From Bacteroidia bacterium (GTDB lineage Bacteria; Bacteroidota; Bacteroidia; AKYH767-A; OLB10), in the NCBI GenBank assembly GCA_016788065.1, contig JAEUTI010000087.1:1-64000 (forward strand): a DNA stretch of 64,000 nt. The letters run 5' to 3'. The notes under the pieces are model-generated. The model did no database searches. It saw nothing but the letters and a program-made list of their open reading frames with translations, and had not been told where the DNA came from. Of this stretch, positions 39,744 through 44,920 are shown piece after piece. Position 1 is the stretch's first letter. Each line of letters starts with the position of its first letter. The position numbers were made by a program, and so were the translations under genes.

Positions 39744-41207
39744 TTACCGCGGATTGCTGAAATTTTCTCCTGCTTTATTTCCGAAGTAGTCGGCGCCTTT
39801 ATTTTTTTCATCATAATCGCGGCTTTGGGTATCTCTTTTATAGATTTCGAGTTCCCAACGGTCGTTGTTCGGCTCTCCCTGAGCATCAGAGTGTAACAGG
39901 ATAAAATCGTTTGTTACCAGATCCGGATTATAGAACACAAATTTGCGATTCGATTGTTGTTCGATTTTGTAATAGTGCCAAATTTCATAAGGGTAAGCAC
40001 TTGGCTCACTGTAGTTTTTTGAAATAGTATTCGGAGGTCCGTATTTCAGGTAAACCCGTCCTCTTTCGGTAGTATATCCTTTGGCAATACGGGTGCTGAA
40101 ATCGTTGTTGACACGCATCACCTCAATGCGGTAGTCCATCCAGGCTTTTTCGGGATTTACAGGGCTACGTTTCGACCAGAAATCATAGAAAAACTGCTGC
40201 ATGATTTTTACATCCGCCAGCTTCATCTGATTGGTAAGGAAAGTTTGTTCCAGCTGATTGGCAATCGGAGTCAGGGAATGAATGTATTCAATTAAAGAAT
40301 CTTTATTGGTGATTGCAGAAGCAAAGGTGTTTGACACATCACGTTGTTGAAAATCGCCGCTAACCGGAAGCGTTACGATGTTGCTGCGCTGGAAAAATGT
40401 GGTGTTGGTGGCAATTAATTCATTTTGCTGATTGCGCACTTCAAGCACGAGGTTGTAGTTGCCCGATGGCAAATCTGTAATGGGAATTTCACGCAACAAG
40501 ACATTTACTTTTTCCGGATTTTGCTTGATGAAACCTCTCATGGCTTCAATTACGCGCTTTGATTCAGCGGTCTCAATAAAGTAACTCAACAGATATGGCG
40601 ATCCGCTCATTACTTTGTCGGTGTTATATACTTCAGCATAAAATTTAAGCGACTTTAATGAGTTACCATAAAAATTATCTGCAAAAGGGATCAAATCAAA
40701 TCCACTTTTCGAAAGCACTGTGGGAGATACCGTTTTAGTGTATGATTCCAGTAGTTCAATATCTGATATAGCAACGATGTTATTGTAGTATTCAATTTTT
40801 ACCGGCTGCGTTACATTGTATGGTTTCTCAGGAATGTTTTTATCGCGGATTACCAATTCCAATACATATTTTCCATTGGGAAGTTGTACGCGTTGCTGAT
40901 CCAGAAAACTAAAATCAAGATTGTTGGTGTCTTTCACTTCGGGACTCAATAAATTGTATTTGTCGGAATGACGAATGCCCTCTGCATCTTTATAGGTAGC
41001 AGTTATTTCAATAGCACCCTGATACATGCCATTGGCATTTTTCGAATAGACAACACTTTTGCCATTTACGGAAAGATAAGTCTCAATGTATGGACCATTT
41101 TCGGGCGAATAAAAAGTCTTGAATGAAAATAATGCCTGTAGATTTTTTGCACTCCCAATTGTTAAATTGAGAGAAATAAGGGCTGCTAATAATAAAATGC
41201 GCTTCAT
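39744..41207 (-). CDS. exported GWxTD-domain protein
   Basis: A 487-residue protein with signal peptide 1-20. The C-terminal region from about residue 350 is the GWxTD-type domain, with FDFWSKR-like FYDFWSKRSPVNPEKAWMDY, YTTERGRVYLKYGPPNTI and YEIWHYYKI. The N-terminal 330 residues are beta-rich. The function is unknown; these proteins occur widely in Bacteroidota and some other phyla, as secreted or periplasmic proteins. It is a monocistronic gene, separated from the 260-residue gene by about 100 bp. Confidence 0.85.
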   Translation of the reverse strand: MKRILLLAALISLNLTIGSAKNLQALFSFKTFYSPENGPYIETYLSVNGKSVVYSKNANGMYQGAIEITATYKDAEGIRHSDKYNLLSPEVKDTNNLDFSFLDQQRVQLPNGKYVLELVIRDKNIPEKPYNVTQPVKIEYYNNIVAISDIELLESYTKTVSPTVLSKSGFDLIPFADNFYGNSLKSLKFYAEVYNTDKVMSGSPYLLSYFIETAESKRVIEAMRGFIKQNPEKVNVLLREIPITDLPSGNYNLVLEVRNQQNELIATNTTFFQRSNIVTLPVSGDFQQRDVSNTFASAITNKDSLIEYIHSLTPIANQLEQTFLTNQMKLADVKIMQQFFYDFWSKRSPVNPEKAWMDYRIEVMRVNNDFSTRIAKGYTTERGRVYLKYGPPNTISKNYSEPSAYPYEIWHYYKIEQQSNRKFVFYNPDLVTNDFILLHSDAQGEPNNDRWELEIYKRDTQSRDYDEKNKGADYFGNKAGENFSNPR

Positions 41208-41714: not shown

Positions 41715-43154
41715 ATGACTGCAAAAAATTTACTCCCGTTCTTATTAATTCTGATCTCTTTTTCAACCAACGCACAGAAGTATGGTAATACCTGGTATTT
41801 TGGCGATAAAGCCGGAATGCATTTCAATAATTGTAATCCCGTAGCTGTTACTTCCAGCGACATTGATGGATTCGAAGGATGCGCCACTTACAGCGACACT
41901 TCCGGCCAGGTTTTGTTTTACACGAATGGTGAGAAGGTGTGGAATCGTCTGAATAATGTGATGGCAAACGGACTGATTTCGCCAAGCGGAAGTACTAAAA
42001 GTCAGACGATCATCATTCCTTTTCCGGGCTCCGATTCACTCTACTACATTATCACTACCTGTATTCAGGGACAACCTGCGTCGGTCGCTGAATATCATAT
42101 TGTCGATATGAGTCTGAATAATGGATATGGCGATGTTTCAAGTAAAAATAATCAGCTCACCACTGCCGTTCCTACTGAACAAGTTGCAGCTACCTATCAT
42201 GCGAATGGCACCGAAATCTGGTTGGTGTTACACGAATACCTGACGAATAATTTTCTCGTCTTTCATGTCACCCCCGCAGGCATACCTGCATTCCCGCAAT
42301 ATTATCCGGTTGGTACCGGTCTTCTCCCTTGTTCGAGTAATATGAATGCTCGCGGACAAATTAAATTTTCTCCCGATGGAAGCAAACTTGCCATTAATGG
42401 TAATGGTGTTGGAAATGATAACCTTTCAAATCTTCTTTCACTTTACGATTTCGATATTAATACAGGTGTGGTCTCGAATCCCATAGATTTGCCATTCAGC
42501 CGTGGCGATTTTTCACTTTCGTTTTCACCCGATAACACCAAATTATATGGTGCTACCTGGAAGGCATTTAATTTTACTATAAGCGATTATAATATTCTTT
42601 ATCAGTTCGATTTATCGAGTGGTGTACCTGCAACAATTATTAATTCCAAAGTAATACTAGATTCTATTCCTCTTCCCCAGTCTTTTGGCGATATGAAATT
42701 AGGACCCGATGGCAGAATTTATATTGCCCGAAATAACTCTGATTTTCTCGATGTAATTCGTTTGCCAAATGTAGCGGGTAGCGGATGTGATTATGTGGCA
42801 TACGATTTTCACCTTGGAGGGAGAACTTCCAAATTCGGCCTGAACAATTACATTGAATACCGCAATTACTGCGATAATACGGTAGCAATTAATGAAATTG
42901 ATGGGTATGCAAGTCCGAAATTGTATCCGAATCCGGTGAATTCAGTTGCACAACTGAAATTGAATACCGAGGTGACTCATGCAAGCATTTCAATCAGCAA
43001 TGCTACCGGCAAGTTAGTGCAGCAATTAGACCGTCTCACAGGTTCGGAATTTAAGATTGATTGTAAAGATTTGAGTGCAGGTTTTTATGTAATTCAACTC
43101 TATGAAAAAGGCACCTTGATTACCACAGAAAAATTGGTAGTGGTAAAGGATTAA
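41715..43154 (+). CDS. secreted propeller-like protein with T9SS type A sorting domain
   Basis: A 479-residue exported protein. Signal peptide 1-20 (TNAQ). Residues 22-380 start GNTWYFGDKAGMHFNNCNP and contain repeated strand groups of a beta-propeller type, as in many Bacteroidota surface proteins annotated with WD40-like or SMP-30 folds (FSLSFSPDNTKLYGATW, DMKLGPDGRIYIARN). The last 75 residues are a type A CTD: SPKLYPNPVNSVAQLKL and LSAGFYVIQLYEKG. The CTD should route it through T9SS to the surface or medium. Ligand unknown. Confidence 0.88.
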   Translation: MTAKNLLPFLLILISFSTNAQKYGNTWYFGDKAGMHFNNCNPVAVTSSDIDGFEGCATYSDTSGQVLFYTNGEKVWNRLNNVMANGLISPSGSTKSQTIIIPFPGSDSLYYIITTCIQGQPASVAEYHIVDMSLNNGYGDVSSKNNQLTTAVPTEQVAATYHANGTEIWLVLHEYLTNNFLVFHVTPAGIPAFPQYYPVGTGLLPCSSNMNARGQIKFSPDGSKLAINGNGVGNDNLSNLLSLYDFDINTGVVSNPIDLPFSRGDFSLSFSPDNTKLYGATWKAFNFTISDYNILYQFDLSSGVPATIINSKVILDSIPLPQSFGDMKLGPDGRIYIARNNSDFLDVIRLPNVAGSGCDYVAYDFHLGGRTSKFGLNNYIEYRNYCDNTVAINEIDGYASPKLYPNPVNSVAQLKLNTEVTHASISISNATGKLVQQLDRLTGSEFKIDCKDLSAGFYVIQLYEKGTLITTEKLVVVKD

Positions 43155-43159
43155 GTTGG

Positions 43160-43304
43160 TACTAGTTGGCAGTTGCAGTTGGCAGTAGGCAGTTGCAGTA
43201 GGCAGTTGGCAGTAGGCAGTCGCAGCGTCGCCCTGAGCAGAGCCGAAGGGTTGGCAGTTGGCAGTCGCAGCGTCGCCCTGAGCAGAGCCGAAGGGTTGGC
43301 AGTA
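43160..43304. repeat. GGCAGT-rich tandem repeat with a duplicated 45-bp unit
   Basis: After the T9SS gene the sequence is a run of overlapping GGCAGT(T/A)(G/T) units (43160-43220). It leads into two adjacent 45-bp copies, 43215-43259 and 43260-43304, that differ at one position. Each copy contains GCCCTGAGCAGAGCCGAAGG, a sequence type seen as dispersed intergenic repeats in Bacteroidota. Open frames across it are artefacts of the repetition. Confidence 0.75.
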
Positions 43305-43599
43305 GGCAAAATAAATCCCAGTGGCAACAGGATGGATATCAGGATGGCTGTCGATTTAAAGTAATTGGCTTTCCGGGACGGCAATATCCTTCTGATACGA
43401 ACTAACTTTTGTCGCGTTTTATAGTTCATGTGTTGATTCAAACCGGTGCGGGTTTGTCGCGGCACAAAATAGCAGCGGTATGTTAACTGAAAGTAAAATG
43501 AGGAATTTGGATTTGTAGTTTTGAACAATTATTACCCAAAAGATACATTTAAGGGGCAAAACCTTATCAACTGCCTGTTCATAAAATAAACCCCCAAAT

Positions 43600-43630
43600 T
43601 TTGTTTTATACCTTAACTTTTGTATTTTTG
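43600..43630 (+). promoter_or_regulatory. consensus promoter of candidate sRNA gene 2
   Basis: TTTG at 43600-43603 and TATTTTTG at 43623-43630 are separated by 19 nt, a full match to the Bacteroidota consensus. The expected transcription start is near 43637. There is no downstream coding frame, so it serves an RNA gene. Confidence 0.75.
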
Positions 43631-43636
43631 AACTAC

Positions 43637-43751
43637 CAGGAACAGTAATTGCGAGTATAGGTTGTACTGCCCCGCAACATTATAAATCAGTAGTTTCTGT
43701 CATATAAAGCCGATCATTTCCACCTGTACTCGGAAATGGTCGGTTTTTTTT
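43637..43751 (+). ncRNA. candidate sRNA with terminator-loop/5'-hairpin complementarity
   Basis: A consensus promoter and a strong terminator bracket about 115 nt without coding potential. Near its 5' end TTGCG and CGCAA enclose a hairpin AGTA-TAGGTTG-TACT (43654-43668). The terminator stem (43710-43721 with 43732-43743) carries a 10-nt loop, ACCTGTACTC. That loop is complementary over its whole length to GAGTATAGGT at 43653-43662, nine Watson-Crick pairs and one G-U. The RNA could therefore form a kissing or pseudoknot structure, or its 5' hairpin could block the terminator loop. I do not recognise the family. The tRNA-Ser gene begins 326 nt downstream with its own promoter. Confidence 0.7.
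43710..43751 (+). terminator. intrinsic terminator of candidate sRNA 2
   Basis: CCGATCATTTCC and GGAAATGGTCGG form a 12-bp stem with one G-U pair, followed directly by eight T residues (43744-43751). Confidence 0.9.
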
Positions 43752-44037
43752 GTGGTATTAATTGATTAATAATTTATTACGCATTTTTAGGTGCGTTTTT
43801 TCAGAAAGCTTCTAAGTTGTTGCTATTTACGACAAGTTTGAAACTTTTTTAATTTGTAACTTCATTTAAAAACCATTCGAAGCGGAGACACCAGTCCATA
43901 AAAAATGCCGTAAAAAACCATTTTCCAAAAGTCAGTGCCTTGATTTTCTGAAAAGAAAACAGCTCAACCGAACATAAAATCTGTTCATTTTCAGCGAGTT
44001 TAAAACGCCAACAACCTCAAATTTTTTTCTCTTCACA

Positions 44038-44076: not shown

Positions 44077-44166
44077 GGAGAGTTGGCAGAGCGGTCGATT
44101 GCGGCAGTCTTGAAAACTGTTGAGGTGTTAAAGCCTCCTGGGGTTCGAATCCCTAACTCTCCGCCA
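44077..44166 (+). tRNA. tRNA-Ser (anticodon TGA)
   Basis: The 90-nt gene folds as a class II tRNA: acceptor GGAGAGT (44077-44083) pairs with ACTCTCC before discriminator G44163, and CCA is encoded (44164-44166). The anticodon loop CTTGAAA carries TGA at 44111-44113. A long variable arm follows, as in serine tRNAs, and the T-arm has GGTTCGAATCC. The UGA anticodon reads UCA and other UCN serine codons. Confidence 0.95.
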
Positions 44167-44284
44167 ACAAAAAATCGCTTCGCGCTTGCGCGCATTAAGC
44201 AAAGGAAAAACCGGCCAAACTTGTTTGAAGCCGGTTTTTCTATTTTGCTTAATGGCCAACGAAGTTGGAAGCGATTTTTTGTTG
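44165..44284. repeat. long three-block inverted repeat directly behind tRNA-Ser
   Basis: Three nested inverted repeats are separated by short unpaired parts. CAACAAAAAATCGCTTC (44165-44181) pairs with its perfect complement at 44268-44284 (17 bp). CATTAAGCAAA (44193-44203) pairs with 44244-44254 (11 bp). GAAAAACCGGC (44205-44215) pairs with GCCGGTTTTTC (44230-44240). The outer arm begins in the encoded CCA of the tRNA. The inner stem followed by T-rich sequence could terminate the tRNA transcript. Confidence 0.8.
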
Positions 44285-44773
44285 ATGCCTCCCCCAAACG
44301 GGATCAGCGAAGCTAATCCCTAACACAAATCAGAACCTGGAGCAACCAACCCTGGTTGGTGGGTTTTTTGTTGATGCCACCCTAAACGGGATCAGCGAAG
44401 CTAATCCCTACTTCAGACCAGCCAAGCTTGCTTGAGCAAAAGGCAGAAATAAAAAATGACGGCACAAAGTGCCGCATTGCTTTTTTGTTGAAGCCACCCC
44501 CAAAAGGGATCAGCGAAGCTAATCCCTTTTGGGAAAAACCGGCCAAACTTGTTTGAAGCCGGTTTTTCTATTTTGCTTAATGGCCAACGAAGTTGGAAGC
44601 GATTTTTTGTTGATGCCACCCCCAAAAGGGATCAGCGCAGCTAATCCCTACCACCAATCGCAGACCAATATCAACCAACTTTAGTTGGTTGTTTTTTGTT
44701 GAAGCCACCCCCAAACGGGATCAGCGAAGCTAATCCCTACCTCAAACCAGCCAAGCTTGATTTTTTGTTGATG
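44205..44773. repeat. array of five boxed hairpin modules downstream of tRNA-Ser
   Basis: A conserved box of about 47 nt, beginning TTTTTTGTTGA(T/A)GCC and ending GCTAATCCCTA, occurs at 44275, 44364, 44481, 44603 and 44692, with a truncated sixth at 44761. Each box contains a compact hairpin GGGATCAGC-GAA-GCTAATCCC. Between boxes lie different terminator-like hairpins, such as AACCAACCCTGGTTGG, GGCACAAAGTGCC and CAACCAACTTTAGTTGGTTG. An 85-nt segment is duplicated (44205-44289 and 44533-44617). No gene is supported here; open frames across the array are shadows. Confidence 0.8.
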
Positions 44774-44920
44774 TCACATCACCTAGGCCAGTATCCCTGT
44801 CAGACATAATCTTCTGAACTGGTAAGGATGAAATTTTCACGCCGGATACGTGAATTCAGACTTATTTCCTGTATTTTTAAGCAGATAACCCTAATGAAGT
44901 CATTTGGTTAAATTTATCTT

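Follow-up and report, generated by a model that had tools for sequence, protein, structure and literature searches.

It is likely, in our judgement with a high probability, that positions 43600-43751 of the 64,000-nt stretch of DNA analysed here (the window) hold a stand-alone small-RNA gene, because a canonical promoter is followed at the right distance by a strong terminator and no gene lies between them. That the gene is transcribed, where its transcript begins and how the RNA would act are predictions from the sequence. The promoter would drive a ~117-nt RNA consisting of an interrupted 5' hairpin and then a strong intrinsic terminator (Table 1), and once complete, the RNA would have a closed terminator stem with an exposed 10-nt loop. 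This loop is complementary to a segment of the 5' hairpin. The preferred reading, to which a probability of roughly 0.6 is given, is that of a lineage-restricted intergenic sRNA with an exposed loop, the self-match being most likely coincidental. If transcribed, it would add to the orphan sRNAs of a Bacteroidota lineage that has been little studied.

Table 1. The candidate sRNA locus and its flanks (positions in the window)
Feature	Position	Strand	Details
GWxTD-domain gene	39744-41207	-	one flank of the sRNA locus
Gene whose protein has a T9SS sorting tail	41715-43154		in the space from the GWxTD gene to the sRNA locus
Bacteroidota sigma-A promoter TTTG-N19-TATTTTTG	43600-43630	+	TTTG 43600-43603, TATTTTTG 43623-43630
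Predicted small RNA, ~117 nt, noncoding	43635-43751	+	predicted from promoter and terminator
5' interrupted hairpin (rod)	43642-43700	+	MFE -15.3 kcal/mol
5' segment CGAGTATAGGT	43652-43662	+	can form 11 pairs, one of them G-U, with the terminator loop
Intrinsic terminator	43706-43751	+	16-bp stem (43706-43721 with 43732-43747), then T run
10-nt terminator loop ACCTGTACTC	43722-43731	+	unpaired in the predicted finished RNA
Second, weaker terminator-like hairpin	43779-43801	+	downstream of the sRNA terminator
tRNA-Ser(tga)	44077-44166	+	other flank of the sRNA locus

The sigma-A consensus of Bacteroidota consists of TTTG near -33 and TAnnTTTG at -7 (PMC7366714, PMC9723704), and in F. psychrophilum TAnnTTTG has been placed at -12 to -5 (PMC9723704). 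With the latter spacing, the start would fall at about A43635, which gives the predicted length of ~117 nt. An earlier note on this DNA had described the promoter, a strong terminator about 115 nt past it and the lack of a coding frame, all of which were found: the promoter elements stand where they had been placed, the 16-bp stem and T run are present, and there is no ORF of at least 20 aa on either strand within the predicted RNA. The transcript proposed there, from about 43637 to 43751, would start at ~43635 instead. The promoter pattern occurs eight times in the window, both strands counted, against 2.05 in shuffled sequences. A small palindrome, TAAGGGGCAAAACCTTA (43551-43567), precedes the -33 box by about 33 bp and is possibly an operator.

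For the finished RNA, a fold made up of the 5' rod and the terminator is predicted at -36.9 kcal/mol, with a z-score of -5.4 that is owed mostly to the terminator; the rod alone is weakly better than shuffled sequences (z -1.6 to -2.0). In this fold the 5' segment is mostly paired within its hairpin, at a predicted opening cost of ~5 kcal/mol, and the terminator loop is single-stranded. A nested form in which a helix of 5' segment and loop replaces the terminator reaches -24.4 kcal/mol and is thus 12.5 kcal/mol worse, which is why a free loop is favoured.

The 97 contigs of the genome, that of an uncultured Bacteroidota bacterium, add up to 4.26 Mb, and the closest relatives found are likewise MAGs of uncultured Bacteroidota. 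The GWxTD gene and tRNA-Ser are near each other also in many of these relatives, with a variable interval between them, and the promoter-terminator units adjoining the GWxTD gene there agree in length and place with tRNA-Ser itself. The sister species (G001), the GWxTD protein of which is 95% identical, matches the gene order of the window as far as position ~43498; there its contig stops, ~140 nt short of the RNA, which may therefore be present in the sister species beyond the contig end. An attenuator or leader function was rejected, as there is no coding gene before tRNA-Ser and a promoter box (TACTTTTG) belongs to the tRNA gene itself. A small ORF (43298-43429, minus strand) runs divergently from the sRNA, and its product would begin with basic residues and contain a hydrophobic stretch (MNYKTRQKLVRIRRILPSRKANYFKSTAILISILLPLGFILPTA...); it is open and 91% identical in the sister species, with a sample too small for dN/dS, and its 3' end enters a GGCAGT repeat, the length of which differs between the two species. 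The RNA was also considered as a type I antitoxin of this ORF and rejected, since there is no extended complementarity: the divergent minus-strand transcript matches the RNA over at most 9 nt, with G-U pairs included.

Several repeats surround the locus. Tandem repeats of the GTTGGCAGTAGGCA type, with two 45-nt units containing CGCCCTGAGCAGAGCCGAAGG, occupy 43155-43310 and are shorter in the sister species. Downstream of tRNA-Ser, at 44165-44780, a 47-nt repeat, in which GGGATCAGCGAAGCTAATCCCT cores follow TTTTTTGTTGATGCCACC, occurs five times in an array with a spacing of 88-122 nt and intervening hairpins. Repeats stand beside tRNA-Ser in several relatives too, and some of them resemble inverted fragments of the 3' end of tRNA-Ser, such as GGCGGAGAGAGAGGGATTCGAA in L027.

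Searches for relatives of the RNA gave no credible match in Rfam, at gathering as well as permissive thresholds, only the RNA itself by blastn in its own genome and 60 relatives, and no match among plasmids. A covariance model of the RNA (R1), run against the relatives, the order, 395 genomes of the class and 54 loci around the GWxTD gene, returned a few weak matches and no homologue; it was built from one sequence, so that distant relatives may escape it. The weak matches that were inspected were rejected as the terminal part of a gene for a small protein (L119), an inverted repeat behind another gene (L074), likeness in only a hairpin or terminator that lacks the loop (L149/L151 and L150), a match that on inspection by eye has no matching loop (L006), and a short match to a hairpin that lies on the other side of the query gene (L090). 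These searches thus gave no homologue that could show covariation of loop and 5' segment, and hence no indication that the RNA or its loop is under selection.

The complementarity itself is as the earlier note had it: the loop pairs with GAGTATAGGT (43653-43662) at 10 of 10 positions, by nine Watson-Crick pairs and one G-U pair. With C43652-G43732 added, the helix reaches 11 pairs and is the longest in the RNA after the terminator stem; the energy of these 10-11 contiguous pairs is -13.8 kcal/mol. The sequence CGAGTAYAGGTNG has two copies in the genome, which are exactly the 5' segment and the loop segment. A match of 10 pairs was reached in 24 of 20,000 dinucleotide shuffles of the 5' part (~0.1% at the named site), at least 10 pairs to this loop were found in 35 of 20,000 random 69-nt segments of the window, and random pairs of loop and segment reached 10 pairs in 93 of 20,000 cases. 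Among terminators of relatives, one of 350 has at least 10 pairs with its own upstream 85 nt and none is equally strong in energy; terminators that behave similarly make up about 1 in 230-350 in related genomes. The low chance claimed by the earlier note was nevertheless understated, because the whole window had been searched: with ~42 terminator-like hairpins in it, about 0.05-0.2 such self-matches are estimated per window. The self-match is thus beyond chance at the named site and uncommon there, and is not improbable when a whole window is scanned, which makes it notable but not compelling. It is extreme among the terminators here (1/350 in pairs, and 2/459 in nascent RNA as given below), which leaves room for a real interaction, but most likely it is coincidental or at most a short-lived intermediate during RNA synthesis.

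Self-pairing with a function of any kind is considered unlikely. In one form of it, loop and 5' segment would pair within one RNA as a pseudoknot, or across two RNA copies, and so mask the loop until binding at the 5' end sets it free. The 10-11 contiguous pairs, their energy, the exclusive occurrence of CGAGTAYAGGTNG in these two segments and the rarity of the match in shuffles at the named site all speak for such a function, but homologues that could show covariation were not found in the searches, and a 10-nt hairpin loop can hardly be used in full in a continuous helix, given RNA geometry. The shorter sub-helices of 6-8 pairs between loop and 5' segment gain 3-9 kcal/mol, to be set against 3-5 kcal/mol for opening the 5' hairpin, and this form of self-pairing is therefore regarded as rather improbable. 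The 5' segment may instead hold the loop while polymerase reaches the T run and compete with closure of the terminator, which would make the latter conditional. In nascent RNAs ending at 43731-43738, the helix of 5' segment and loop is the predicted ground state with a probability of ~0.75-0.99, and at 43740 the terminator takes over. By the number of loop nucleotides held by upstream sequence in nascent RNA, this terminator ranks third of 459, and it is one of only two that have at least 90% of the loop held. These values are equilibrium predictions that ignore the speed of folding, while the 5' rod forms first and would have to open; 10-13 of 200 shuffles fold the intermediates equally well, and another terminator among the 459 behaves alike. 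Furthermore, such a switch would have no downstream gene to control, as only the second terminator-like hairpin and tRNA-Ser with its own promoter box follow. Loop capture during transcription is hence thought very improbable, and slighter still is the chance that capture of the loop, and not of a stem arm, by the upstream segment delays terminator closing as a self-timed or ligand-tuned conditional terminator. If it were real, loop capture would be an unusual way of tuning an intrinsic terminator.

It has also to be considered that there is no functional RNA, the promoter being a chance match or part of a remnant unit and any transcript inert. No conservation was detected, about two promoter matches are expected per window by chance, and relatives differ in the interval that separates the GWxTD gene from tRNA-Ser, all of which is in line with this view. 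However, a promoter so near a strong terminator with no gene between them is an unlikely accident, and the sister assembly ends before the site, so that a lack of function appears no more than a minor prospect. The free-loop sRNA therefore stays the preferred reading. If it is functional, base pairing in trans via the terminator loop would be the likeliest mode of action, as in RepG of Helicobacter pylori. This analogy makes it reasonable to propose that targets would pair with the loop, but the genome shows no enrichment of exact sites for it: the pattern GAGTAYAGGT has 11 sites, two of them within the RNA itself and nine elsewhere, and a reversed control pattern has eight. By default, the RNA may thus be taken, on analogy, for a trans-acting sRNA specific to its lineage, the terminator loop of which would be the likeliest contact site, or for a functionless transcript.

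Among known RNAs, 6S-Flavo RNA (RF01685) has a similar length and a rod-like hairpin and comes from the same phylum, but it gave no match at this locus, and its best candidates in the genome lie elsewhere and score below the gathering cut-off of the family. RepG likewise presents an exposed terminator loop of a size for target pairing (PMC8295292), the exposure being a prediction in the present case; the loop of RepG is rich in C and U, its binding site being a G-repeat within a known leader (PMC8295292), whereas the loop described here is of mixed composition, and the likeness is one of mode, not of kinship. Closest in kind are the intergenic sRNAs of Bacteroides thetaiotaomicron such as GibS (PMC7366714), which belong to the same phylum and share the canonical sigma-A type promoter, the Rho-independent terminator, the noncoding nature and a similar kind of locus; no sequence relation to them was found in Rfam and genome searches, and transcription is here a prediction. 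With its promoter (TTTG, TAnnTTTG), Rho-independent terminator and lack of a coding frame, the candidate has the features of a canonical Bacteroidota intergenic sRNA. In B. thetaiotaomicron, 27 of 49 high-confidence intergenic sRNAs are strain-specific (PMC7366714), and because sRNAs with promoter and terminator but no homologue are common in Bacteroidota (PMC7366714), the orphan status fits an ordinary sRNA. The RNA would thus be ordinary in kind and orphan in sequence, with a self-match that is striking and possibly accidental.
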